From positions 1 through 38,817 of the forward strand of contig RYFE02000047.1 in assembly GCA_004138175.2 (NCBI GenBank): 38,817 nucleotides of DNA, read 5' to 3'. The position numbers and the translations under genes are program-made. The number at the start of each line of letters is the position of its first letter. Position 1 is the stretch's first letter. The notes under the pieces are model-generated. The model was not told where the DNA came from, made no database searches, and saw only the letters and a program-made list of their open reading frames with translations. Shown in pieces: positions 3,215 to 36,941 of the stretch. The DNA comes from Chloroflexales bacterium ZM16-3. GTDB taxonomy: Bacteria; Chloroflexota; Chloroflexia; Chloroflexales; Chloroflexaceae.

Positions 3215-4573
3215 TTAGATCAGCCTGTCGGCCAGATCATAGCAGTGGAAGCGGGCAAAGAAATTGGTGCGCTTACGCATCAGATGCAGATTAAGCAGCC
3301 GTGCAGCAGCTAATATGCCGGGGTCCCGCAGGAGCCGCTCAAGTTGATCAATGCCCACAACTTCGATGCTCACCTGATCAATGCCCGCAGCGACATAGCC
3401 AACTTCATCAATCGTCGCGCCAGGATAGATGGCAAGAAAGGGCGCGTTTTGTGGGTAGGCCGCTCGAAACGCAAGGTTGGAGATGTTCACAAAGGCCCAG
3501 ATCTGACGTGGATTATCCTTCAAACGCCCCACGACACACACCTCCATCGTGTTGCTATTGAAGCAGGCGATGCGCGGCCAAGTGCTGGCGTTTGTCGAGG
3601 GCATGCAGCTTACGCTCCAGTAGGCTGGCTCAGTGAGCGCAGGCATGGGAATACACGCCGCCACATACTGGCGCAGGCAGGCAATGATCCGGTTCGCGTC
3701 GGAGCGCTGCTGAAGTTGCGTGAACTTACCCGCCTGCTTCGCGCGCAGATCGACAGGAACTATCGTACGCTGGCCGGTCGCAAGCGTCGTCGAATCAACC
3801 AGCCAGCGGCGCTGATCATCAGGGAGAACCAGATCGTCGAAGGGTGATGACTGGTGTGTGATGCTTGCGTGAACGATGTTTAGCAGCGCGAATCCGCGTG
3901 ACTCCAGAATGTGAATCGCTTCACGCTCGCGCGCATCAAGTATGGCCTTCGTGCGCGGCAGGTGCAGCAGGCTGACCTGTCGGAGAGTGGGGTAGTTTCG
4001 CCGGTGCGTGGCGAGCCGAGCGGTCAGATCGACGGATTGTCCGACATAGAAGCGACCATCAGCTAGATGGAGAACGTAGATACCAGATTTCCTGGGCGGG
4101 ACAAGGTTCGCAGTCGGTGGAGCGAAGCCCAAGGTTGCTAAGATTGCCTCAAGCCCATCCGCCTCTAACGCGGCATCTTGGCGACGGATGGATGCCGCCC
4201 ACTCAGGCCAGTGGAGATCGGGGTCAATCGTCGTTGGCTGTCCAAGCTGAGTTGGCTCGTCTGGCCGACGAAACTCCCAAAGATTATCCTCAGTGATCGG
4301 CCCTTCGGTGATCACCGTCACGTACTCAGGATCAACTGGCTCGTCAAGGAGTTCGACCTCCCAGGGGTAGTCATTAAGGGTGGGCAACAGGATGATCAGC
4401 TCACGATCCTCGCCAAACTGTACCTCAACGGGAGCACTGAGCCGATATACCAGATCATCCGCGGGATCATAAATGATCCCGGCAAAGAAGCAGTGCAGTG
4501 GAGCGGTCGTCGAGTCGCCGTGCGCCAGTGTATATACCTCATCAGGGTTAAGGTTGCGGCGGATGGTACTCAT
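3215..4573 (-). CDS. GIY-YIG nuclease-domain protein
   Basis: A protein of 452 residues with a GIY-YIG domain near residues 162-235. SGIYVLHLADGRFYVGQS supplies the two short GIY/YVG motifs, followed by an Arg-containing helix (LTARLATHRR) and a downstream Glu (AREREAIHIL) in the usual order for metal-dependent endonucleases. The N-terminal ~160 residues (acidic, beta-rich) and the C-terminal ~200 residues match nothing I recognise. The gene runs against every neighbour and has a noticeably lower GC content. It sits exactly where the flanking + strand element genes are broken, so it appears to be a later insertion. Possible roles are homing/mobility nuclease or defence nuclease; I cannot choose between them. 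The start ATG at 4573 lies behind a GAGG (4577-4580 on the complement). Confidence 0.75.
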   Translation of the reverse strand: MSTIRRNLNPDEVYTLAHGDSTTAPLHCFFAGIIYDPADDLVYRLSAPVEVQFGEDRELIILLPTLNDYPWEVELLDEPVDPEYVTVITEGPITEDNLWEFRRPDEPTQLGQPTTIDPDLHWPEWAASIRRQDAALEADGLEAILATLGFAPPTANLVPPRKSGIYVLHLADGRFYVGQSVDLTARLATHRRNYPTLRQVSLLHLPRTKAILDAREREAIHILESRGFALLNIVHASITHQSSPFDDLVLPDDQRRWLVDSTTLATGQRTIVPVDLRAKQAGKFTQLQQRSDANRIIACLRQYVAACIPMPALTEPAYWSVSCMPSTNASTWPRIACFNSNTMEVCVVGRLKDNPRQIWAFVNISNLAFRAAYPQNAPFLAIYPGATIDEVGYVAAGIDQVSIEVVGIDQLERLLRDPGILAAARLLNLHLMRKRTNFFARFHCYDLADRLI

Positions 4574-4681
4574 AGGAGAACCTCATGGAACGATGGATGA
4601 CCAGATGATTCAAAATACACGGAGAGTATACGTAATGGTTACTCGAAAGTCAACCGCCTGTTCATATTCATTTTTTTACCA

Positions 4682-4924
4682 ATGATAGATCCAGGTTCAG
4701 CAGCAAGAAAAGTCAATTTTGAGAAAACATTCGTCTTAGCACTACCCACCAACGACGAGGCTGCACTTCTCACCAACGAGGCTGCACTTCTCACCAACGA
4801 GGCTGCACTTCTCACCAACGAGGCTGCACTTCTCACCAACGAGGCTGCACTTCTCGCCAACGACGCTGCACTCTCGAACAGTCGGGGCTGGATGAGGGTT
4901 TGGGGGAAATCACCAATTGGATAG
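4682..4924 (+). CDS. Possible small heptad-repeat protein (doubtful)
   Basis: An 80-codon frame whose centre is five copies of a seven-residue unit (EAALLTN) encoded by the 21-nt tandem repeat. The unit length is a multiple of three, so the complementary strand is also open (repeating SAASLVR). I see no strong ribosome binding site for either. It could be a short amphipathic repeat peptide or merely an open frame over a repeat. Confidence 0.2.
   Translation: MIDPGSAARKVNFEKTFVLALPTNDEAALLTNEAALLTNEAALLTNEAALLTNEAALLANDAALSNSRGWMRVWGKSPIG
4757..4861. repeat. 21-nt tandem repeat, five units
   Basis: Five head-to-tail copies start at 4757, 4778, 4799, 4820 and 4841, each beginning GAGGCTGCACTTCTC; the last has one substitution. 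A degraded sixth copy begins at 4862. There are no spacers, so this is not a CRISPR array. The array lies between the GIY-YIG gene and the VirB4 stump, within the low-GC block. Confidence 0.95.
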
Positions 4925-4937
4925 AGAACCTGCGTAG

Positions 4938-5531
4938 ATGCTGCGCGGTGTCTGGGACGCTACCACCCTCTTCCTCGACCGCACCAGCATCGGGCCGAGC
5001 TTTGACGGCCACACGACCGTGGACTGGCAGTTCGGCGCGGACATCACCTACTACGACTTCTCCGAGATCGAAGAGATCTACCGCCCGCTCTACTACGCGC
5101 TGACCATCGGGGCCATCCTGCGCTTTATGCGCGACCCGACCCGCGACCGGCGGCGCATGACCCTGCTGCAGATCGACGAGTTCGGCTACCTGACCCAGGT
5201 CGAGGCATTGGGCCGGCTGGCCGCGACGATCGCCAAGGTCGCCCGCAAGTACGGCATCGGCCTGATCGCCATCGACCAGAACCCGATCACCTTCCTGAGC
5301 AGCGACCACGGCCGATTTATCTTTGAGAACGCGGCGGACAAGGTGCTGTTCCACCTCGACGACCTGCCGGCCCGCCAGATGGCCGAGGCGATCTCCGACA
5401 TCCGCCCCGGCCACGTCAGCTACCTGACCCGTGCCGGCAAGGGCATGGCCCTGGCCATCGTCGGCAACGATGTGTCCACGATGAATGTCGAAGCCATCCC
5501 CTACGAGCTGCGCATGCTGCGCGGGTCGTGA
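4938..5531 (+). pseudogene. C-terminal fragment of VirB4/TraC-type conjugation ATPase
   Basis: Only the last ~197 residues of a VirB4/TraC-like (HerA/FtsK-fold) ATPase remain. A Walker B-like strand is visible at residues 76-82 (LLQIDEF), followed by GLIAIDQNP and a C-terminal arginine-containing segment. The Walker A half, normally several hundred residues upstream, is absent: an in-frame TAG lies directly before the ATG (4935-4937), and farther upstream is the foreign GIY-YIG block. In conjugative systems this ATPase powers type IV secretion channel assembly and transfer at the inner membrane. Without the P-loop this piece cannot hydrolyse ATP, so the local copy is presumably dead. Downstream coupling is intact: the stop overlaps the GTG at 5528. 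Confidence 0.75.
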
Positions 5532-6522: not shown

Positions 6523-7037
6523 TACCACACCTCCTGATGGCAGACCAGATTGGGCAGGCGGTCAACGTCCCCGCTTTCCTCCAGCCCGAGCTGGATTCCC
6601 GTCTGAGCAGCTGGCTGATCCTCGTCATGACTCACCCAACGACATTGGCGCAGGAACCGGAACCGACTCTCGAGGAGACTGGTTCCTCGATCTGGCCGAC
6701 CGGGCCGGAGGGGATGCCGCCGGTGGCGCTGGGGCGGCTGGTCGAGCAGATTATCGTCGAGCCGCGCTTTCAGTCCACCCGCAAGGGCCAGTCGGGCATC
6801 ACGAAGGGTCGCCTGGCTAGCTTGAAATATCCCGGCCTGACCGAGGCCATCGCCCGCTGCCTGATGGTCTGGTTCGACCGGGCGGGGGTGCTGGCCGATC
6901 CCGAGGACGGCCAGGGGCCGTGGCGGGCGCCGCGCCCCTTCGCCCTCCAGGATCTTCCGCTGATCGCCCAGCAGCTGCGCGCCGCCCCGCTGCCCAGCAG
7001 TGTGGACGTGCAGGCGGCCTACGGAGGTGAGGGATGA
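6438..7037 (+). CDS. 3' part of the frameshifted element gene
   Basis: This carries the downstream half of the split gene and reads through ARDLIPHLLMADQIGQ and a helical C-terminal domain (VALGRLVEQIIVEP...IARCLMVWFDRAGVL) that could be a winged-helix or wHTH-like fold; I do not recognise a family. ATG 6438 and ATG 6537 are possible independent starts, but neither has a Shine-Dalgarno sequence, which favours a frameshift over a separate gene. The stop overlaps the start of the coupling ATPase (ATGA, 7034-7037). Confidence 0.5.
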   Translation: MAELACAARRWARAAIPAAPLVAGARDLIPHLLMADQIGQAVNVPAFLQPELDSRLSSWLILVMTHPTTLAQEPEPTLEETGSSIWPTGPEGMPPVALGRLVEQIIVEPRFQSTRKGQSGITKGRLASLKYPGLTEAIARCLMVWFDRAGVLADPEDGQGPWRAPRPFALQDLPLIAQQLRAAPLPSSVDVQAAYGGEG

Positions 7038-10000
7038 GCCAGCAGACCACCAAAAAGAGCGCATCCTTCGGCAGCACCAAGCCGCTGCCGCCGGCTGGGC
7101 TGCGCCCGCCCGCGCCACCCTGGGCGAAGATCGCCGCCTGGGCGGTGCTGCTGCTCTGCCTGAGTCTCTTGCTCAGCCGGGGATACATCCTGGCCTGGGC
7201 GACGACACAGCCGGTGGTCGCGCTGCCCCTGCCGGGCAAACCGCTGCCCGCCGATGGGCCGCAGGGGCTGGCGCGCTTCAGCGCAATGGCCGCCCTGGCC
7301 CTGCGGGCGATCCTCTTTCCGCCGGGCAGCCTGGTTGTCGAGGCACTCGCCGGCCTCGGCTTGCTCGTCATCGGCTTGGAGCTGGCCCTCGGCGCGCTGC
7401 TGCTGGTTATCCAGACAATGATGAGTCGGGTGCAGGGCCGGCAGGCGCTGCTCGTGCGTGTGCCCTACCGGCCGACCGCGCGGGCGAGCGACACCGCCAC
7501 CGACCTGTTCCGCGCCCTGCACCGCCAGCTGCCGATCGCCAACGTCTGGCTCGGCCAGGCCCCCTGGCTCAGCCTGACCCTGAGCGCCCGCCCGGACGAG
7601 CCGGTCGAGTTGGGCATCCTGGTCGCCGGCGGCACGGCCAGGCAGCGGGTCAGCTGGGTCGCCGCCATCCGCAAGACCATCCAGGGTCTTTCACCCGATG
7701 CGCTCGTCGAGCTGCGCCCCGACCCGCTCGCGGCCGCGCTCACCGCTGGCCGCGTGGCGACCTGGGCGGAGTGGAAGCTTTCGCTCGCCCCGATCTACCC
7801 GCTGCGTCTGGCCGACGACCAGCAGGCCGGCGACCTGGTCGGCCCGCTCGTCGCCGCGCTCCAGCCGCGCCAGGGCGTGGGCTACACCGAGTTCCAGCTG
7901 AGCCTGCGCCCGCGCCCCGACGACAGCCACCTGGCCCGTGGCTGGAAGGCCGCCGGCACCCGCCGCCTGCTGCGCCTGATGGGCAAGCACGAGTACGCCC
8001 TCAGTCCGGACGCTCGTGCGTTAGAGACCAAGCTGGCCGGGCCGATCTACGACGCCACCCTGCGCGCGGTGGCAGTCGCAGCCGATGCGGGGCAGCTTGC
8101 CCAGGCCCGCGCGGAAGTGGACGAGGTGAATGCGGTGCTGGGCCAGTACGCCGCCCGCAGCGGCAGCCGCCTGCAGCGCTGGGTGCGCCAGGCCGGCGGC
8201 ACACGGCACATCTCGCGGCGGCCAGCCTGGATGCAGGACATGCGTGGCCAACTGCTTGCCCTTGCCGTCGGTGGTCTGGTCGGCGGCGTGCTCTGGCCGT
8301 TGCTCACTTCCTACCCGCTGTTTGTCGTTGGTCTGAGTCTCATCAGCATGACGATGCTGGGCCGCATCTTCGGCCAGCATGCCCGCCGCCAAGTGAAGCA
8401 GCTCCATGCCCGTGCGGTGCGGGCGACCCCACTTTCCGGCCTGCTCTGGGGAGCGGCCTGGCGTGGCCCGAGCATCCTCAGCGTTACCGAGTTGGCCGGG
8501 CTCTGGCACCTGCCCACCCCAACCCAGGGCCGACTGGTGCGCTGGCTGCCCTGCGCCTACCTGCCCCCGCCGCCCCACGCCTTCGCCGACGAGCCGCCCC
8601 TGGTCGGTGAGGACGGCGTGACGCGCCCGGCTCGGCTGATCATCGGCGTGGGCATGCACCGCGACGACCAGCTGGCACCGGTCGGCATCCCGCTGCGCGA
8701 CGCCCGCCAGGGCATCGCCTTCACCGCTCCGCCCGGCGTCGGCAAGACCCAGATCGCCTCCAACCTGGCCGACCAGCTGCGGCCCTGCGGCTACACCCTG
8801 ATCGACGGCAAGGGCGACGACGCCGGCAACCTCGTCGAGACCATGCGCCAGCGCATCCCACTCGAAGACGAGGCCCGCCTGGTCATCCTCGACACGCTCG
8901 ACGCCGCCTGGCCGGTCGGCATCAACCCGCTTGCTGGGGTGGATCTCGCCGACACCGGCGCGGTCGATCAGGTACTCGGCCAGATCGAGGCCATCTTCGC
9001 CCGGCTCGACCCCGAGACCTGGGCCAAGGCCCCGCGCATGAAGAACTACCTGCGCAAGGCCACCTTACTCGTGCTCGCCGGTGAGAGTCACCCGACGATT
9101 GCCCATGTCAAGCAGGCCTTGCTCGATCAGGGCTACCGCGAGCGCCTGCTCCCGGCCTGCCGCAACGTCGAGGTGCGCGACTTCTGGATCATCGAGTTCC
9201 CGCAGATCGGCGAGCAACAGAAAGCCAGTCGCGACGCCCTGGTCAGCCGCTTCGATATGCTGCTCGACTCCGAGCTGACCCGCTACCTGTTCAACCAGAT
9301 CGCCCCGGCCCTCGCGTTTCATGATGCCATCGCCGAGCGGCTCATCGTCCTCGCCCCCCTGCCCCACCGCACCCTGGGCGGCCTCGCCGGGCCAGTGGGC
9401 ATGCTGCTCTTCCAGAGCCTGCTACGCGCTGCCTTCCGCCGTCCCGGCTCCGATCTCACGCGGCCCGAGTACGGCTTCATCGGCGACGAGTTCCAGGTGC
9501 TGGTCGAGAACTGTGACACCAAGGACGTGCGCGACGCGCTGACCCAGGTGCGCGCCTTCGGCATCGTCACGATTATCGCCAACCAGCTGCACAAGCAGCT
9601 CGGCGACCTGGCCGACTACGCGCTGACCGCGATCTCCAACCGCATCCTCCTGCGCACCCAGGAGCCCGACGCCACGCTCTACGCCCGCCACTACGCCGAG
9701 AGCGGCATCACCGCAGCTGACATCTCCGGCCAGGAGCCGCGCGAGCACCAGTACGCCTGGATCGGCGTCCACGGCACGCTGACCCGGCTCTTCTCGCTAC
9801 GCCCGCTGCCCTGGCTGCCGTCGCTGGAGGTGACAGTGCCGGCCGAGGCCGACACCGCCTGGCAGCAGCGCATTCCGCCAGACTCGCCCACCCCAGCCTT
9901 CGATGCGGCGATCTGCCAGCTGATGTACGGCCAGCACGCCGACCCCGAGGCCATCGCCCAGGCATTGGCCGCCAGTGACGCCGAGCGCTGGGAGCAGTTG

Positions 10001-10360
10001 CTGACCCGCTGGGACGCCATCCGCGCCGAGCACCGCCGGCATCTCCTGGCCCACCCCGGCTGCATCCCCGACACCAAGGCGCGCCAGGTCTGGCGCTCGC
10101 GGCTGCGCGCCGCCCGCCCGCGCGTCCTGGCCATGGCCGAGTACGCCCGCATCCGCCAGGCCATCCAGCCGGGGGAGGCGACGGTACCGAGCCATCGCCG
10201 CACCGCCAGCGGTGCCGCGCCCACATCGGGCAGCGTGGCCGTCGAGCCCAAGCCGACCCAGCAGGCCCACTTCCCCGAGATCGACCGCCGCGAGCCAAGC
10301 CGGCTCAGCCGGAGCGAGCCTGACGACCTGACCGTCGAGCCGGTCGCGGAGGGTGAGTGA
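7034..10360 (+). CDS. VirD4/TraG-type coupling ATPase
   Basis: A large (1108 residues) membrane ATPase expected to couple the DNA-relaxase complex to a type IV secretion channel during conjugation. Hydrophobic segments lie at about 36-60, 100-135 and 395-445, so the N-terminal third is membrane-embedded. The motor domain has a Walker A motif at 565-572 (APPGVGKT, Lys571), a Walker B at 813-819 (YGFIGDE), and TraG/VirD4-like helicase segments such as IVTIIANQLHKQL. Residues beyond 1010 are charged and probably flexible. It is longer than classical VirD4 because of the extra ~500-residue front part. Start and stop overlap neighbours by four bases, and its last codons run into the 12-nt repeat array. 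It is the only core transfer gene that looks fully intact here. Confidence 0.8.
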   Translation: MSQQTTKKSASFGSTKPLPPAGLRPPAPPWAKIAAWAVLLLCLSLLLSRGYILAWATTQPVVALPLPGKPLPADGPQGLARFSAMAALALRAILFPPGSLVVEALAGLGLLVIGLELALGALLLVIQTMMSRVQGRQALLVRVPYRPTARASDTATDLFRALHRQLPIANVWLGQAPWLSLTLSARPDEPVELGILVAGGTARQRVSWVAAIRKTIQGLSPDALVELRPDPLAAALTAGRVATWAEWKLSLAPIYPLRLADDQQAGDLVGPLVAALQPRQGVGYTEFQLSLRPRPDDSHLARGWKAAGTRRLLRLMGKHEYALSPDARALETKLAGPIYDATLRAVAVAADAGQLAQARAEVDEVNAVLGQYAARSGSRLQRWVRQAGGTRHISRRPAWMQDMRGQLLALAVGGLVGGVLWPLLTSYPLFVVGLSLISMTMLGRIFGQHARRQVKQLHARAVRATPLSGLLWGAAWRGPSILSVTELAGLWHLPTPTQGRLVRWLPCAYLPPPPHAFADEPPLVGEDGVTRPARLIIGVGMHRDDQLAPVGIPLRDARQGIAFTAPPGVGKTQIASNLADQLRPCGYTLIDGKGDDAGNLVETMRQRIPLEDEARLVILDTLDAAWPVGINPLAGVDLADTGAVDQVLGQIEAIFARLDPETWAKAPRMKNYLRKATLLVLAGESHPTIAHVKQALLDQGYRERLLPACRNVEVRDFWIIEFPQIGEQQKASRDALVSRFDMLLDSELTRYLFNQIAPALAFHDAIAERLIVLAPLPHRTLGGLAGPVGMLLFQSLLRAAFRRPGSDLTRPEYGFIGDEFQVLVENCDTKDVRDALTQVRAFGIVTIIANQLHKQLGDLADYALTAISNRILLRTQEPDATLYARHYAESGITAADISGQEPREHQYAWIGVHGTLTRLFSLRPLPWLPSLEVTVPAEADTAWQQRIPPDSPTPAFDAAICQLMYGQHADPEAIAQALAASDAERWEQLLTRWDAIRAEHRRHLLAHPGCIPDTKARQVWRSRLRAARPRVLAMAEYARIRQAIQPGEATVPSHRRTASGAAPTSGSVAVEPKPTQQAHFPEIDRREPSRLSRSEPDDLTVEPVAEGE

Positions 10361-10427
10361 TGGCACCAGTGATGTCAGGGATGCTATCACCAGTGATGGC
10401 ACCAGTGATGGCACCAGTGATAGCGCC
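10356..10427. repeat. 12-nt direct repeats, six units
   Basis: Head-to-tail units start at 10356, 10368, 10380, 10392, 10404 and 10416; three are exactly AGTGATGGCACC, the others diverge. ATCACCAGTGAT (10386-10397) forms a small near-palindrome inside. The array overlaps the coupling gene stop codon. Confidence 0.9.
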
Positions 10428-10493
10428 CAACCAGGGTTGCAAACATTTGCAGCTCCGGCGGGAGGGCCGGAATCGGCCGTTTTTCTGGGGTTT

Positions 10494-10530
10494 GGCTACA
10501 AAAAATGGGTTTTGCCAAAAGTTTGTAGCC
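10494..10530. promoter_or_regulatory. 9-bp inverted repeat around an A/T-rich core
   Basis: GGCTACAAA (10494-10502) and TTTGTAGCC (10522-10530) are perfect inverted copies separated by 19 bases. They could be a dimer operator or a hairpin in single-stranded DNA. A second short palindrome, TGCAAACATTTGCA, lies at 10438-10451. Confidence 0.6.
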
Positions 10531-10553
10531 GTGATACGGCGGCGATCACCGGG

Positions 10554-10642
10554 CCGTTTGCGCGTCCAGATGCGCGCCGCTTGGGAGCCGCTTGGGGGCC
10601 GTTTGCCCGCCACTTGCGCGCCGTTTGGGCTCGTTTGCCGCG
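10554..10642. repeat. 11-nt iteron-like direct repeats
   Basis: Units of consensus CCGYTTGSGNG start at 10577, 10588, 10599, 10610 and 10621, exactly 11 bases apart. There is an outlying copy at 10554 and a slightly out-of-phase copy at 10632. An 11-base period is one helical turn and not a multiple of three, so a DNA-level function is more likely than a coding one. Confidence 0.75.
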
Positions 10643-10725
10643 TCCTGATGCAGACGGGCAGGAGCGGCATTCCAGAAGGGGCGATTGAAAGACGGCTTTT
10701 TCCACTTTTTTGGACGAGCGATTCT

Positions 10726-11628
10726 GTGGGAACTGACATTCACAACCTGCTGATCAGCCTCGCCTGGCTGGGCGAGCTGCGCACCGACCACGTGCGCCGG
10801 CTCTGGCTCCCCGATCATCGACTCCAGGCAGCGCAGCGCCTGCTCCAGAGTCTGCGCGCCGAGGGCTACGTCGAGCGGCGCATGTGGTCGCGCTGGGTGC
10901 CTGGGAGAACCACGCCCCAGCGGCAGGGCGCGCTCTGGTCAGTGAGCCGCAAGGGGCGGGACATGATCCGCGAGAGCGACCAGTACCCGCCGGAGTACAA
11001 GGAGCCACGAGCGCGGCGGATGGTGCCCCACGACAGCACGACCAGCGAGGCGATCGTGCGCGTGATCGAGCTGGGCCGCGCGGTGGAGTTCGCGGGCCAG
11101 CGCGGCATCAGCGGGCTCTACGTCGAGCGCGAGGTGCGCCTCGATCCGGCCCGGCCCCGCCCGGTGATGGACGCCCTGATCATCGTCACCGTCGGCGGCG
11201 ACTTCGACCGCCCCGACCTGGTGCCCTGGTCGCGCGACCCGACCCTGGAGGGCGAGCGGCGGGTGCGCTACGCCCTGGAGAACGACCGCGACACCGAGCC
11301 GCCCACGGTGATCGCCGCCAAGGCCAGCCACTACCAGCGCGCCGGCACGCCGGCCTGGGAGCGCCGCTATGGGCGCTTCCCGCTGCCGCTCTGGCTCACG
11401 CCGAGCACCCGCCGGCTCCAGCAGATCCTCGACCTCTGGCGGCAGGCCTGGCCGGTCGGCAAGTGGCTACTGACCACCGACGCCTGGCTGGCCCAGGACT
11501 ACTGGATCGAATACGACCACGGCGCGACGATCGAGCGCCGCCTCTTCTCGCGCAGCGGCCTGCACCGCCCCCAGGGTGATGCCGCAGACCAGGCCGCCAT
11601 TGACCACATCCTCAGGAGGACATCATGA
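10726..11628 (+). CDS. Replication-relaxation family protein
   Basis: Resembles the replication-relaxation (Replic_Relax, MobC-like) family found next to origins and relaxases on plasmids and integrative elements. The N-terminus is a winged helix (IHNLLISLAWLGELRTDHVRR... LLQSLRAEGYVERR). The central part has conserved acidic and aromatic positions (MDALIIVTVGGDFD, ENDRDTEPPTVIAAKASHYQ) that could form a nuclease-like or DNA-binding core. GTG 10726 is chosen because family-like sequence begins there and GGACGAG lies about eight bases upstream. The frame is open back to 10357, but that stretch is repeat-rich non-coding DNA. The protein probably binds the repeats upstream of its own gene, by analogy with initiators and mobilisation accessory proteins. 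The stop overlaps the next ATG. Confidence 0.65.
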   Translation: MGTDIHNLLISLAWLGELRTDHVRRLWLPDHRLQAAQRLLQSLRAEGYVERRMWSRWVPGRTTPQRQGALWSVSRKGRDMIRESDQYPPEYKEPRARRMVPHDSTTSEAIVRVIELGRAVEFAGQRGISGLYVEREVRLDPARPRPVMDALIIVTVGGDFDRPDLVPWSRDPTLEGERRVRYALENDRDTEPPTVIAAKASHYQRAGTPAWERRYGRFPLPLWLTPSTRRLQQILDLWRQAWPVGKWLLTTDAWLAQDYWIEYDHGATIERRLFSRSGLHRPQGDAADQAAIDHILRRTS

Positions 11629-12662
11629 CCACCCAGACCCCACGCATCAACCAGGTACGCATCGTCGGCACCCTCGACACCCAGACCATCTCGCGCCGCG
11701 ACGCCGCAAGCCTGCCCGGCGTCATCCCGGCGGCCGGGCGCGGCGAGCGACCTCGGGCCACGGTGACCCGGCGCTTCAACGCCGTGCAGGGCAGCGAGCA
11801 GCGCGCCGTCTTGCAGGTCGCCTCGCCCTTCGGCACGCCCTTTCAGATCACCCTGCACCTGGAGGCGAGCGTCGCCGGGTGTGCGCTCTTGGAGAGCAGC
11901 CCGCCCGGCACCATCCTCGCGGCCACCGGCGAGCTGGAGTGGGTGCAGATCACCGACCCACGCTACGCCGTGGACATAGACGACCGTGGCCGGCGCAGCA
12001 GCGAGCTGATCGTGCGCGCCCACACCGTGGAGCTCGCCGGTGATGATGACCAGCCGGGCTACGATGTCTGGCTGGAGGGCAGCGTCCTAACCACCCCGCG
12101 TATCCTGCGCCACCCCGACCGGCCCGTGCTCATCGCCGCCACCACCGTGCGGGTGACCATCGAGCACACGCGACCGGGCAGCCGGGCGCGTATCACCGAG
12201 CCAGCCAATGTGGCCGTCGCCATCCCGGTCGATCACCCCGACGCGCCGAACCTGCTGCGCCCGGGCAACCAAGTGATCATCGAGGGCATGCTGGAGCGCT
12301 ACCTCGTCCCGCTGCGCGGCGTCGAGATCGAACGGGCGGTCGCCGCCCTCGACGCGGGCTGGCAGCAGGAGCAGGCTGGGCTCAGCGCCCAGGCCCAGCG
12401 CGACGCCGCGCGGCGCTACGCCCGCCAGCGCCGCCGGCTCCAGGAGACCACCCGCACCCGCGTGGTCGCCGGCTATGTCGAACTGGTCTCCGGCACCCCG
12501 GCCAGCCTCGACGAGGCCCAGGAGCTGCGTGCCGAGAGCCAGCGCCGCCGGCGCGAGGATCGGCGCGGGCGGCGCGAACGGCCGACCGAGCGGAATGAAG
12601 CACCGGAGGAACAGGCACCAACAAACGACTCGATCGACGCAGCTGACCCGAGCGCAGTGTAG
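11625..12662 (+). CDS. OB-fold ssDNA-binding-like protein
   Basis: A 345-residue protein whose first ~110 residues (INQVRIVGTLDTQTISRR... ASPFGTPFQITLHLEASVAGC) and a second unit near residues 145-230 (YDVWLEGSVLT... LRPGNQVIIEGMLERYLVP) have the strand pattern of single-stranded DNA-binding OB folds, apparently in tandem. The C-terminal ~100 residues are highly charged (Arg/Glu) and probably disordered, where SSB normally has its acidic tail. A strong ribosome binding site (AGGAGG, about 11613) precedes ATG 11625, which overlaps the upstream stop. A role in protecting transferred or replicating single strands fits its place beside the relaxation protein and recombinase. The family assignment is tentative. 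Confidence 0.55.
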   Translation: MTTQTPRINQVRIVGTLDTQTISRRDAASLPGVIPAAGRGERPRATVTRRFNAVQGSEQRAVLQVASPFGTPFQITLHLEASVAGCALLESSPPGTILAATGELEWVQITDPRYAVDIDDRGRRSSELIVRAHTVELAGDDDQPGYDVWLEGSVLTTPRILRHPDRPVLIAATTVRVTIEHTRPGSRARITEPANVAVAIPVDHPDAPNLLRPGNQVIIEGMLERYLVPLRGVEIERAVAALDAGWQQEQAGLSAQAQRDAARRYARQRRRLQETTRTRVVAGYVELVSGTPASLDEAQELRAESQRRRREDRRGRRERPTERNEAPEEQAPTNDSIDAADPSAV

Positions 12663-12668
12663 GCGGCC

Positions 12669-12872
12669 ATGGCCAAGCGCACCCCACATCCCACCCTTCC
12701 CGACGACCTGCGTGACCGGGTGCGCCTGGATTCGCCGGGTCGCGCCGGCGGCATGACCGAGTTCGTCCACGCCCTCGCCGCTATTCTGGCGCGTCTGGAC
12801 GCGGAGCAGCGCGGTCGCGTACAATCTGAGCCACCGCAGGGATCTGCGGAGGAGCGAAAGGAGCAGCTGTGA
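12669..12872 (+). CDS. Small protein preceding the recombinase
   Basis: A 67-residue protein with helical segments (LPDDLRDRVRLD, FVHALAAILARLDAEQ) and the same codon bias as its neighbours. The stop TGA at 12870-12872 overlaps the recombinase GTG at 12869, indicating translational coupling. No family is recognised. It could be a directionality or regulatory factor for the recombinase, judging only by position and size. Confidence 0.5.
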   Translation: MAKRTPHPTLPDDLRDRVRLDSPGRAGGMTEFVHALAAILARLDAEQRGRVQSEPPQGSAEERKEQL

Positions 12873-14353
12873 AACGTGCCTCGATCTACATTCGCGTCTC
12901 GACCGAGGAGCAGGCCGAGGAGGGCTACAGTCTGGCCGCCCAAGAGCGGGCCTGCCGGATGTACGCCGAGGTGCAGGGCTGGTCGGTCGTGCGGATCTAC
13001 GCCGACGAGGGGCTGAGCGCGTTCAAGGACCGGATCGAGGATCGCCCGCAGCTGCGTCAGCTGCTCGACGACGTGGCCGCCCGGCGGATCGACGCGGTGA
13101 TCGTCCACAAGCTCGACCGCTTCTTCCGCCGGGTGCGCCTGCTGATGGAGGTGGTTGAGCAGTTCGAGCGCCAGGGCGTGCAGTTCGTCAGCTTCAGCGA
13201 GCAGATGGACTTCTCGACCCCGGTGGGCCGCATGGTGCTGACCAACCTGGGCGGCTTCGCCGAGTTCTACAGCCGCAATCTCTCGACCGAGACCGCCAAG
13301 GGCAAGCGCGAGAAGGCCCAGCAGGGCGGCTGGGTCGGCCCGATCCCGATCGGGTATGAGAAGGGGCCGGACGGCACGCTGATACCCTCGGCCGACGCGC
13401 CGGCAGTGCGACGGATCTTCGCGCTGTACGTCACCCGCCAGCACAGCTACACCAGCATCGCTGACGAGCTGAACGCGGCGGGCTGGCAGACCCACGAGAC
13501 CCGCACCGGCCGGCGCGGGCGCTTCGGCCGCGAGAGTATCCGTACCATTCTGAAAAACGCCGCCTACATTGGGGTGGTCTCAAGCGGCGGGGTGCAGTAT
13601 CCCGGCAAGCACCCGCCGCTGGTCAGCGAGACGCTGTTCGCCACTGCCCAGGCCATTCGTGAGGAGCGCACCGGCATTCACGGCTCACCCGTGCGTCATA
13701 CGATCGCCTGGCTGATCGGCACGGTCTGGTGCGCGCACTGCGGCAGCAAGCTTTGGCACCAGTCGGGGAGCACGAATGGGCAGGGGCGCTACTACTGCTG
13801 TAGCGGGATATCGCGCCGGGAGTGTACGGCCCGCCAGGCGCCCGCAGCCCGGCTCGAAGGGGAGATGGCGCAGATCCTGAAGCTGTTGGTACTGCCGCAG
13901 GCGCTCATCCCACAGATCGTCGCCGAAGCGCGACAGCTTGCGGGCGAGCATCACGCTCCGCCAGAAGTGCGTGACGCGGCGCAGGAGGGCTATCTGCAGC
14001 AGTTGAAACAGGCGTACAATGCGGGTATACTAACGAGGTCTGAGTATCAGCGGAAAGTGAAGGAGGCGCAAGCCGAAAAAAGCCAGCCGCCACGTGGCGG
14101 GGCTTTCGATACGCAGCAGGCGGCTCAGCAGCTCGCTGACCTCCCGCATGTGTTAGAAAAGGCTACCGTACCGGAGCGGCTTGCCGTCGTCAAGGCCTTG
14201 TTCGACAAGATCTGGGTACAAGACCGTACGATCGTGAGGCTTACGCCGCGTGCCGATGTGGGGCCCGTACTCGCCGCTCTGGTACAAGTATTGGATGGGG
14301 TGCCTGATGGGTTTCGAACCCACAGCCTCCTGAGCCACAGTCAGGCGCTCTAA
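12869..14353 (+). CDS. Large serine recombinase (element integrase)
   Basis: Catalyses integration and excision by double-strand cleavage with a 5'-phosphoserine link. The N-terminal resolvase domain starts at residue 1 (YIRVSTEEQ, nucleophile Ser11; RIYADEGLSA; VIVHKLDRFFRR). The recombinase domain follows (about 160-270), then a zinc ribbon (WCAHCGSK... YYCCSG...C, about 285-325) and a coiled-coil segment (about 370-400). At 494 residues it is of normal size. GTG 12869 has AGGAG about eight bases upstream and overlaps the preceding stop. The last ~20 codons (GVPDGFRTHSLLSHSQAL) are the antisense of the host tRNA-His, and the stop codon lies inside the tRNA gene. The open frame therefore ends on host DNA acquired by integration, and the natural C-terminus may differ in the excised form. 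Confidence 0.9.
   Translation: MKRASIYIRVSTEEQAEEGYSLAAQERACRMYAEVQGWSVVRIYADEGLSAFKDRIEDRPQLRQLLDDVAARRIDAVIVHKLDRFFRRVRLLMEVVEQFERQGVQFVSFSEQMDFSTPVGRMVLTNLGGFAEFYSRNLSTETAKGKREKAQQGGWVGPIPIGYEKGPDGTLIPSADAPAVRRIFALYVTRQHSYTSIADELNAAGWQTHETRTGRRGRFGRESIRTILKNAAYIGVVSSGGVQYPGKHPPLVSETLFATAQAIREERTGIHGSPVRHTIAWLIGTVWCAHCGSKLWHQSGSTNGQGRYYCCSGISRRECTARQAPAARLEGEMAQILKLLVLPQALIPQIVAEARQLAGEHHAPPEVRDAAQEGYLQQLKQAYNAGILTRSEYQRKVKEAQAEKSQPPRGGAFDTQQAAQQLADLPHVLEKATVPERLAVVKALFDKIWVQDRTIVRLTPRADVGPVLAALVQVLDGVPDGFRTHSLLSHSQAL
14296..14320. other. Probable element attachment junction at tRNA-His 3' end
   Basis: The integrase gene abuts and enters the 3' portion of tRNA-His while the complete tRNA is preserved, as expected when an element inserts at a tRNA 3' end and restores it. 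The matching direct repeat (other att site) should lie left of the window; none is seen inside it. The exact crossover bases cannot be set. Confidence 0.45.
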
Positions 14354-21488: not shown

Positions 21489-24044
21489 ATGACCCACCAG
21501 AACCGTCCGATGAAGCCCGAGGTGATGAGCCCGGCTGGCCACTGGCCGCAGCTGAACGCTGCGATCGAGGCTGGTGCCGACGCCGTCTACTTTGGGCTGA
21601 ACCACTTTTCGGCCCGTGCCAAGGTCAGCTTCACGCTTGATGAGCTGCCCGAGGCTATGCACACGCTCCACCGGCGCGGCGTGAAGGGCTATGTCACTTT
21701 TAACACGCTGGTGTTCGACCACGAACTGCGCGAGGCTGCGCGTGTCCTGGAGCAGATCGCCGCCGCCGGGGCCGACTCGATCATCGTGCAGGATGTGGGC
21801 GTAGCCCGTATGGCCCACCAGATCGCCCCCGACCTGGCCATCCACGGCAGCACCCAGATGAGCATCACGAGCGCCGAGGGTGTTGAGCTGGCCCGCCAGT
21901 TCGGGGTGAGCCGGGTGGTGCTGGCCCGCGAGCTCTCACTGGCCGACGTGCGGGCCATCCGCGCCGCCACCGACATTGAGCTGGAGATCTTCGGCCACGG
22001 CGCCCTGTGCGTCTCCTACTCCGGACAGTGCTTCTCGTCCGAGGCGTGGGGCGGGCGCAGCGCTAACCGAGGCCAGTGTGCCCAGGCGTGCCGTCTGCCC
22101 TATGAGCTGATCGTCGATGGCCAGCATATGCCGCTCGGTGACGCGCGCTACCTGCTGTCGCCGGGCGACCTCTACGCGCTCCAGCACATCCCCGAGATTG
22201 TGCAGATAGGCGTCTCGGCGATCAAGATTGAGGGCCGCTACAAGGGCGAGGCGTATGTGGCCCTGACAACCAGCGCCTACCGCAAGGCGATCGACGAGGC
22301 ATGGGCTGGCCTGCCCCTGAGCATCACCCGCGCCGAGGAGATTATCCTGGAGCAGGTCTACTCGCGCGGCATGGGCGACTACTTTATCTCTGGGACGAAC
22401 CATCAGCGGGTGGTGGCCGGGCGCTCGCCGCGCCACCGTGGCGTGCTGGCCGGGAAGGTGGATCGCGTCTTCGCCAACTATGTGCTGGTGGAGCCGAACC
22501 CCGACATCGCCGAGGCCCCGCTGAAGGCCGGCGATGGGGTGGTCTTTGACGCGGCCGACTGGCGCAGCCCCCAGGAGCCCGAGGAGGGCGGGCGGCTCTA
22601 CCACGTCACCCCGACGCGCGACGGCCTGCTGGAGCTTGAGTTTGCGAATAACGCGGTGGCGTTTGATCGCATCCGCGCGGGCGATCTGCTCTGGCGCACG
22701 CACGACCATGAGACCGACCGGGCGGCCCGGCCCTTCCTTCAGCCCGCCGCGCCGCTGCGCCGCCAGCCGGTGACGGCCCGCGTGATCGCCCACGAGGGCG
22801 CGCCGCTGGAGGTCACCTTCGCCCTGGTGGCCCGCCCCGAGCTGCGGGCCAGCGCGCGATCCGAGCAGCCCCTCGGCAAGGCCCAGCGCCGCGCGGTGGA
22901 CGTGGACTACCTGCGCGAGCAGCTCGGGCGCCTCGGCAGCACGCCCTATGAGCTGGCAGACCTTGAGCTTGATATGAGGGGCCAGCCATTCGCGCCCAGC
23001 TCGCTGCTGAACAGCCTGCGGCGGGATGCGATTGAGTCGCTCTCCAGGAGTCAGGAATCAGGAGTCGGGAGTCGGGGGCCGTGGATCAGGAGTCAGGATT
23101 TGGGAGTCGGGAGCCAGAGGGCGGGCAATGAGCACAGCGCGCGCAGAGCCCCCCCGACTCCCGACTCCCGCGTCCTGAATCCCAGCCTCCACCTCCTCGT
23201 TCGCACGCCCGAGCAGCTCGACGCGGCGCTGGATCTGTACCCAGCCAGCATCACGCTGGACTATCTGGATCTGTATGGGCTGCGACCGGCGGTGGAGCGT
23301 GTGCAGGAGGCCGGGATTGAGGTGCGGGTAGCCAGCCCGCGTGTGCTCCAGCCAAGCGAGCAGCGGGTGGTGCGCTTCCTGCTCAATCTGGGCTGCCCCA
23401 TCCTGGTGCGCTCCGGCGGGCTGCTCCAGGCTCTCCAGGCCGAGGAGCGCCCAGCCCTGATCGGCGACTTCAGCCTGAACACGGCCAATGTGCTCAGCGC
23501 CGAGATCTTTATGGGCATGGGGCTGGATCGCCTCACCCCGACCTACGACCTGAACGCGGCCCAGGTGGCCGACCTGGCCCGCGCCATTGGCCCCGCCATG
23601 ATCGAGGCCGTGGCCTATCAGCACCTGCCGGTCTTCCACACTGAGCACTGCGTCTTCTGCCGCTTCCTCTCCGACGGCACGAGCTATAAGGACTGCGGCC
23701 ATCCCTGCGAGACACGCCGGGTGGCTCTGCGCGACGAGCGCGGTCGCTCGCACCCGGTGATGGCCGACGTTGGCTGCCGCAACACGGTCTTCGGGGCCGA
23801 GGCCCAGGAGGCCAGCCGACATATGGACGCCTGGCGCGATGCGGGGGTGGCCCACTACCGCCTGGAGTTTGTCCACGAGACAGGCGCGCAGGTGGCGCAT
23901 GTGGCCCGCGCGTTTGCCGAGTATCTGGCTGGCGCGATCCCCGCAGCCGAGCTCTCCCGCCGCCTAGCTCAGGTCTCGCCCCAGGGCACCACCGAGGGCA
24001 GCCTGTTTGTGCCCGAGGGCTACGAGCTTATCCCATTGGTATAA
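21489..24044 (+). CDS. U32-family protein, RlhA/YdcP-like
   Basis: The N-terminal U32 domain (residues about 9-330) has the family landmarks: AAIEAGADAVYFGLNHFSAR, the signature EIFGHGALCVSYSGQC near residue 165, and the Cys-rich continuation CFSSE...NRGQCAQACRLPYE. A DUF3656-like middle region follows. The last ~290 residues contain further conserved cysteines (HCVFCRFL, DCGHPC), suggesting an iron-sulfur site. E. coli RlhA (YdcP) hydroxylates C2501 of 23S rRNA; orthology is likely but not certain, and this copy is longer (851 residues). Residues about 518-560 are encoded by a low-complexity inverted repeat (23044-23180) inserted in frame. ATG 21489 is the first start; ATG 21510 (MKPEVMSPAGHW) better matches the family start, but neither has a Shine-Dalgarno sequence. 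Confidence 0.8.
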   Translation: MTHQNRPMKPEVMSPAGHWPQLNAAIEAGADAVYFGLNHFSARAKVSFTLDELPEAMHTLHRRGVKGYVTFNTLVFDHELREAARVLEQIAAAGADSIIVQDVGVARMAHQIAPDLAIHGSTQMSITSAEGVELARQFGVSRVVLARELSLADVRAIRAATDIELEIFGHGALCVSYSGQCFSSEAWGGRSANRGQCAQACRLPYELIVDGQHMPLGDARYLLSPGDLYALQHIPEIVQIGVSAIKIEGRYKGEAYVALTTSAYRKAIDEAWAGLPLSITRAEEIILEQVYSRGMGDYFISGTNHQRVVAGRSPRHRGVLAGKVDRVFANYVLVEPNPDIAEAPLKAGDGVVFDAADWRSPQEPEEGGRLYHVTPTRDGLLELEFANNAVAFDRIRAGDLLWRTHDHETDRAARPFLQPAAPLRRQPVTARVIAHEGAPLEVTFALVARPELRASARSEQPLGKAQRRAVDVDYLREQLGRLGSTPYELADLELDMRGQPFAPSSLLNSLRRDAIESLSRSQESGVGSRGPWIRSQDLGVGSQRAGNEHSARRAPPTPDSRVLNPSLHLLVRTPEQLDAALDLYPASITLDYLDLYGLRPAVERVQEAGIEVRVASPRVLQPSEQRVVRFLLNLGCPILVRSGGLLQALQAEERPALIGDFSLNTANVLSAEIFMGMGLDRLTPTYDLNAAQVADLARAIGPAMIEAVAYQHLPVFHTEHCVFCRFLSDGTSYKDCGHPCETRRVALRDERGRSHPVMADVGCRNTVFGAEAQEASRHMDAWRDAGVAHYRLEFVHETGAQVAHVARAFAEYLAGAIPAAELSRRLAQVSPQGTTEGSLFVPEGYELIPLV
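23061..23168. repeat. Inverted repeat of heptamer units inside the U32 gene
   Basis: The 18-base arm at 23061-23078 (two GGAGTCG units plus GGGG) is exactly complementary to 23151-23168. Further imperfect GGAGTCA/GGAGTCG units lie at 23044-23115. Total length preserves the reading frame. The same heptamer forms the array at 36860-36941. Confidence 0.85.
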
Positions 24045-36763: not shown

Positions 36764-36832
36764 GATTGTAGATTGCAGATTGCAGATTGCAGATTGCAGA
36801 TTGCAGATTGCAGATTACAGATTGCAGATTGC
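36764..36832. repeat. GATTGCA heptanucleotide array
   Basis: Ten head-to-tail 7-base units from 36764, with GATTGTA and GATTACA variants at 36764 and 36813. It begins 12 bases upstream of the cyclase start codon, so it occupies that gene's promoter region. Confidence 0.95.
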
Positions 36833-36859
36833 GTACTTCTATAGTAACGCACTTTCCCC

Positions 36860-36941
<82 letters not shown>

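Follow-up and report, generated by a model that had tools for sequence, protein, structure and literature searches.

A candidate transfer origin with 11- and 12-bp repeat arrays upstream of a putative MOB_C relaxase gene in a Chloroflexales bacterium

The region 10356-10725 of the window, i.e. the whole 38,817-nt stretch of contig RYFE02000047.1 from Chloroflexales bacterium ZM16-3 analysed here, probably serves an integrated conjugative or mobilizable element as its origin of transfer (oriT), with an overlapping control region. The element encodes a candidate MOB_C relaxase directly downstream (10726-11628). The assignment was made from sequence comparison, because of the synteny with a relative, the relaxase family, the 11- and 12-bp arrays recurring near PF13814 genes of two phyla, and the precedent of TraX from plasmid pAD1. 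Most simply, an 11-bp array and the conserved block at its end would form the binding site of the relaxase and the core of the oriT. A 12-bp array further upstream may be a second site, the role of which is less certain.

Repeat arrays and neighbouring genes

The following features were assigned in window coordinates.

4938-5531, forward strand: VirB4-like conjugation ATPase, C-terminal fragment (ORF, 197 aa)
7034-10360, forward strand: large ATPase, probable coupling protein of the VirD4/TraG type (64% identical to L035:6022-9495)
10356-10427, forward strand: 12-bp array, six units with a near-palindromic CACCAGTG core
10438-10451, unstranded: 14-base palindrome TGCAAACATTTGCA (TGCAAA-CA-TTTGCA), read from the sequence
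10465-10478, forward strand: terminator-like hairpin GGCCGGAATCGGCC, 14-base and palindrome-like, then GTTTTT
10494-10502/10522-10530, unstranded: 9-bp perfect inverted repeat GGCTACAAA..TTTGTAGCC with an AT-rich core of 19 nt
10553-10651, forward strand: 11-bp phased array with repeats in register, proposed binding site of the relaxase
10635-10713, unstranded: conserved block, non-coding; may represent the core, a promoter or a 5' leader (65/79 identical to L035 9901-9979)
10726-11628, forward strand: PF13814 (Replic_Relax) protein over the cut-off, candidate MOB_C relaxase
11625-12662, forward strand: uncharacterised gene that overlaps the stop of the relaxase gene; conserved in Candidatus Chloroploca mongolica
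12869-14353, forward strand: large serine recombinase with Resolvase, Recombinase and Zn_ribbon domains, probable integrase of the element

The 12-bp array begins at the upstream ATPase gene's stop codon. Its units follow AGTGATGGCACC with variation, the second and third being diverged. The 11-bp array comprises about five good units (CGCCGCTTGGG, AGCCGCTTGGG, GGCCGTTTGCC, CGCCACTTGCG and CGCCGTTTGGG), and weaker units flank it on both sides. Array scores were compared with 1000 dinucleotide shuffles, allowing any lag of 7-30 in scoring windows of 24, 36 and 66 nt. None of the 1000 shuffles matched the 12-bp array at any of the three sizes; the 11-bp array was matched by none at 36 and 66 nt and by one at 24 nt. 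The repeats and palindromes of the preliminary description are real, and the 9-bp inverted repeat is perfect. It lies 66 nt past the 12-bp array and 22 nt ahead of the 11-bp array, and extrusion of 10494-10530 as a cruciform appears possible. Folding of 10426-10552 as single-stranded DNA gave a z of -2.1, with 6/200 shuffles equally good. The 11-bp array itself folded more poorly than its shuffles and therefore represents no hairpin. One terminator-like hairpin was found in 10300-10780 against 0.7 expected from shuffles.

With up to three mismatches, a 24-mer from the 12-bp array and a 31-mer from the 11-bp array had one extra match in the own genome, a related 12-mer array on contig C68. The 18-mer GGGGCGATTGAAAGACGG of the conserved block occurs mismatch-free only at the loci of the window and C. 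mongolica among the matches listed for 158 class genomes. A widespread repeat was rejected, as pattern matches in other genomes appeared by eye to be mostly coding repeats. A scan of 9800-12800 against Rfam for known RNA elements gave no match at E 0.5, and the plasmid collection held no similar DNA at E 0.01. Viral contigs encoding the PF13814 protein were not confirmed.

The frame 10357-11628 is open (423 aa), as is the corresponding frame of C. mongolica across its 11-bp array. Open frames also cross the arrays of the loci L024, L025 and L026. In a simple base model, such openness has a chance of ~1.6% in the window and 0.2% in C. mongolica. The period of 11 is no multiple of three, mismatches of the conserved block to C. 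mongolica fall 3/8/3 on codon positions 1/2/3, unlike coding DNA, and L010 and L030 have stops between the array and the PF13814 gene. Therefore, 10357-10725 is best taken as non-coding, as described initially, with a gene start near 10726. A coding N-terminal extension of the relaxase was rejected because of the period, the codon-position pattern and the closed frames of the two relatives. The preliminary description had held that an unbroken protein across 10357-10725 in homologous elements would speak against it; an open frame does exist in the window and in C. mongolica, but the conserved stretch does not evolve in a protein-like manner.

The upstream ATPase shows, by eye, a Walker A motif GVGKT and the motifs DGKGDD and GDEFQ. 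It had no Pfam and no PDB match, and hhalign against the pAM373 coupling protein gave a weak alignment covering Walker A only (E 0.002, probability 14%). Window positions 4968-5531 align with 4095-4658 of the C. mongolica locus, the C-terminal part of L035:2334-4658. The latter matches VirB4 models (NF045971, 8.4e-26, under that model's own cut-off). The window's element may no longer be self-transferring, because just this C-terminal part of a VirB4-like ATPase was aligned and a serine recombinase follows. The gene at 11625-12662 had no Pfam or NCBIfam match; window 11641-12522 matches L035 10991-11871 at the DNA level. The VirB4-like fragment is preceded by a reverse-strand ORF (3215-4573) without Pfam match and by a 21-nt tandem repeat (4755-4872, 5.6 copies).

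The nearest relative and the PF13814 protein

The nearest-relative comparison concerns one confirmed genome-contig locus, L035 of Candidatus Chloroploca mongolica (Chloroflexales). Its PF13814 protein is 68-69% and its ATPase 64% identical to the window proteins. In both loci, the coupling ATPase gene is followed in turn by the 12-bp array, hairpins, the 11-bp array, the conserved block and the relaxase gene, and the gene after the relaxase is syntenic as well. Behind the ATPase gene, C. mongolica carries a 30-bp palindrome with 12-bp phase and CACCAGTG core (L035 9589-9618, hairpin z -4.5). Considering all lags, this 12-bp array was reached by 0/1000 shuffles at 24 nt, by 54/1000 at 36 nt and by 419/1000 at 66 nt; it was not picked up by the survey scan described below. 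The 11-bp series GCTTCGTTTGC occupies the same place as in the window and was reached by 0/1000 shuffles at 36 and 66 nt and 24/1000 at 24 nt (all lags). Thus, the conservation of repeat spacing, named earlier as a check, was found in a related element: both periods are kept between the two species and the unit sequences have drifted. A full-length VirB4-like ATPase is encoded upstream in C. mongolica, and a tyrosine integrase downstream.

The window protein scores 37.3-39.9 bits with PF13814 (cut-off 25.3), the C. mongolica protein 24.7 bits, slightly under the cut-off. No NCBIfam match was obtained for the window protein. PF13814 corresponds to MobC for CONJscan, and Rel_PF13814/MobC has been listed for two streptococcal integrative mobilizable elements (IMEs) with VirD4 and a serine integrase (PMC5357655, excerpts). 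MOB_C relaxases are related to PD-(D/E)XK enzymes (PMC12857230, excerpts). The window protein carries the family-conserved residues D149, E185-x-D187, K199 and Y203 (numbering from M1). In a family alignment of 141 sequences, the aspartate is present in 135, the glutamate in 140, D or E two positions on in 140, the lysine in 126 and the tyrosine in 131. The pAM373 relaxase, as aligned, has no lysine in the K199 column. By analogy, the acidic residues and the lysine may act as catalytic residues of the PD-(D/E)XK type.

An N-terminal profile from 17 relatives gave weak matches to helix-turn-helix (HTH) regulators, mostly of the MarR type (E 0.007-0.62), and the N-terminal region is a candidate winged HTH. 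Profile comparison with the pAM373 relaxase was weak, with E 0.4 for two sequences and E 0.0015, probability 16%, for 17 sequences. An AlphaFold2 model from two sequences was unusable (pLDDT 39). According to a 2025 review, the MOB_C prototype TraX of pAD1 carries a winged HTH at its N-terminus and binds to five direct repeats within oriT, ~70-120 bp from nic; a covalent link of TraX to DNA was not observed (PMC12857230, excerpts). Calling the region an undescribed origin type was consequently too strong, as a direct-repeat oriT bound by a MOB_C relaxase had been described for pAD1 in that source.

Arrays beside other PF13814 genes

The survey in Chloroflexota covered 144 PF13814 loci, comprising loci from profile searches and 80 places picked from listings, a selection of all matches. 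At least 200 nt were available upstream at 140 loci and downstream at 143, and up to 800 bp were scanned per side. A lag score above the maximum of 40 block shuffles was counted as significant. Related genes were counted separately, L013/L163 was entered twice, and L002 and L033 were dropped as duplicates. Lags of 11 or 12 were found upstream at 35/140 and downstream at 6/143 loci (Fisher P 4e-7, kin loci counted separately). Upstream, lag 12 occurred at 22 loci, lag 11 at 15, lag 22 at nine and lag 24 at eight, each other lag at four or fewer; downstream, lag 11 occurred at five and each other lag at four or fewer. Lags other than 11, 12, 22 and 24 showed no upstream excess (13 loci vs 17 downstream). 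Background segments (n=79) had lag 12 in three cases and lag 11 in one. After clustering at 40% identity, 11/37 clusters carry an 11/12-bp array upstream and at most four downstream. As best lag, 12 was found upstream at 26/142 and 11 at 12/142 loci, compared with 7/136 and 6/136 downstream.

A significant 11/12-bp array was absent within 800 bp upstream at 105/140 loci. Counting either side, 41/144 loci have such an array and 103/144 are without one at this sensitivity. The mean autocorrelation of all loci at lag 11 is 0.283 both upstream and downstream, and at lag 12 it is 0.308 vs 0.296. With no mean excess at lag 11, the signal is therefore confined to a minority of loci. At L255, an 11-bp array-like stretch near 4034 (G053:C1; 0.69 over 36 nt, without shuffle comparison) is located ~1.2 kb upstream of the relaxase gene. 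This lies beyond the scanned 800 bp, and the number of arrays in the survey may therefore be too low.

Two groups within a single genus (g20) differ in their array units, and most aligned rows have a core near GGCCRTTTGGTCGTGCCGACAYTCTTTAACAG behind the array. The middle of this core is altered in L025 and L026, and the core is absent from L009 and L023. The GGCCRTTTGGTCGTGCCGACAYTCTTTAACAG-like core is a candidate nick or control region.

Outside Chloroflexota, pAM373, typed as MOB_C by MOB-suite, has a 12-bp array directly after the coupling gene (0.83 over 36 nt, without shuffle comparison), followed by large inverted repeats, as judged by eye, and the PF13814 gene. Six further Enterococcus plasmids, a diverse choice among 40 listed out of a total of 282 records, were compared with 60 shuffles each. 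Five of the six exceeded all 60 shuffles, with period 11 in L181, L183, L184 (an unannotated record) and L185, and period 12 in L180. L182 gave a weak 11-bp signal (0.58) below the threshold. Every array precedes the PF13814 gene, and the coupling gene of L183 is separated from the array by a thioredoxin gene. MobC of CloDF13 has the MOB_C family name in common (PMC12857230, excerpts). The CloDF13 record NC_002119 (L036) contained no PF13814 match. Its mobilisation region appears frame-shifted by eye, and its MOB_C relaxase is therefore unreadable from that record.

Alternative explanations and proposed function

The left half of the region (10356-10531) could be a module that is dispersed or exchanged and has no part in transfer, the right half alone belonging to the relaxase. 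This division is unlikely, though it has to be reckoned with. The 12-bp array and its right flank have collinear homologous copies at orthologous places elsewhere in this genus, on G000:C68 (~39680-39817) and G004:C104 (~811-977), with 68% identity over 138-140 nt, E about 0.001 and a flank similarity that beats all 1000 shuffles. The 10438-10451 palindrome has a counterpart in both copies. The stretches read beside them revealed neither a relaxase gene nor a coupling gene like those of the window, and the flank is without detectable similarity in C. mongolica (141/1000 shuffles as good). However, both the 12-bp phase and the CACCAGTG core are retained at the corresponding position in C. mongolica, and a stricter pattern of the 12-mer triple was present in just 4/82 order genomes, two of them apparently with matches within coding repeats. 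For the gene adjoining the C68/C104 module, 61 genomes yielded eight further, distant relatives. Of these, five are located ~3-4 kb or less from a PF13814 gene, four of the five again by tblastn, and the left module therefore probably belongs to this class of elements. It need not be the relaxase's own site and might be a partition or regulatory site.

In plasmid segregation, 11-12-bp arrays are bound by ParR- or TubR-like proteins. A centromere-like partition site of this kind is very improbable here. The gene beside the C68/C104 module appears actin-like by eye, and the vicinity of its relatives to PF13814 genes fits partition; yet the gene had no Pfam or NCBIfam match, and its sole PDB match was short and to a photosystem chain. 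A gene of this type was found by tblastn neither in the window nor in L035, and the survey links the arrays to the relaxase gene. Iteron origins consist of direct repeats and an AT-rich core, which the direct repeats and AT-rich core of the window resemble. Nevertheless, an iteron-type replication origin has hardly any likelihood: a Pfam scan of 19 window ORFs revealed no replication initiator, the nearest gene is of a relaxase family, and integrase-type genes are present, the serine recombinase in the window and the tyrosine integrase in C. mongolica. Of the replication or transfer origin proposed initially, the transfer part is thus supported by synteny, family, array recurrence and the TraX precedent, while the replication part found no support. 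Binding by the downstream protein, likewise proposed initially, is plausible from the TraX precedent.

An operator or promoter region only, with the relaxase or a small regulator repressing the relaxase operon via the arrays and the oriT located elsewhere, is improbable. It would suit the position of the arrays upstream of the gene and of the conserved block, the end of which is 12 nt from the start codon. MobC of RA3, which belongs to a different protein family, is a known example of an autoregulating relaxosome protein (PMC4175270, title). A scan for sigma-70-like promoters found none, though it misses other promoter types. Against a sole operator, five of the six downstream cases (L004, L020, L027, L028 and L034) have 11-bp arrays of ~3-4 similar units downstream of the PF13814 gene, where they are hardly its operator. 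One of the five is situated in the window's own genome (contig C50), and L004, L020 and L028 lie on contigs with two tandem PF13814 matches. Operator and oriT roles are compatible and can coexist.

For the preferred reading as oriT, relaxase binding, a nick site and transfer are proposed by analogy. The putative N-terminal winged-helix region of the relaxase would bind the 11-bp repeats, which lie one turn apart, and several copies would align along one side of the double helix. Nicking by the PD-(D/E)XK-type domain would take place at a separate site nearby, in either the conserved block or the inverted repeat. The upstream coupling ATPase would then receive the nicked strand. The 12-bp array that follows the coupling gene is placed like the array of pAM373 and would serve as a second module for protein binding.

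Like the oriT of pAD1/pAM373, the window has a coupling gene (a probable assignment here), then direct repeats of period 11/12, then a PF13814 relaxase. The binding of repeats by a winged HTH, known for TraX, is a candidate feature of the window by analogy. In contrast to these plasmids, the window holds an integrated Chloroflexota element with two arrays (12 and 11) and an inverted repeat between them; the unit sequences differ, and the inverted repeat is far shorter than that of pAM373 (by eye). The gene types VirD4, Rel_PF13814/MobC and serine integrase are shared with class 8 of the streptococcal IMEs (PMC5357655, excerpts), likened by gene content alone, although the window has a VirB4-like fragment in addition.

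A more general proposal is put forward tentatively, with a likelihood approaching even. The helical period of 11 or 12 bp, not the sequence, may be the common signature of MOB_C transfer origins across phyla. Winged-helix copies would be placed on one DNA face, leaving the unit sequence free in each lineage and keeping the phase; here, two arrays flanking a hairpin would constitute a bipartite oriT. Excerpts from the MOB_C oriT literature (PMC5357655, PMC11104534, PMC9299015, PMC12857230, PMC5714925, PMC5587640, PMC6414798), a set with subscription papers mostly outside, state no 11/12-bp rule, which is weak evidence of novelty. Among three listed titles on Chloroflexota/Chloroflexi and relaxases, none concerned such a transfer origin.

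The region is a candidate transfer origin for a Chloroflexota element. MOB_C relaxases are unusual in being restriction-enzyme-like, with no covalent TraX-DNA link observed (PMC12857230, excerpts). A phase rule for MOB_C oriT binding sites, as suggested by computation in Chloroflexota and Enterococcus, gives a testable geometry of relaxase and DNA. If true, it would enable computational oriT finding in more elements.

Tandem repeats of another kind occur near the far end of the window. A 7-bp array of GATTGCA (36764-36832, 9.9 copies) is located close to a 7-bp array of CCCGACT (36857-36940, 12 copies), and 2.6 CCCGACT units are also found at 23153-23170.
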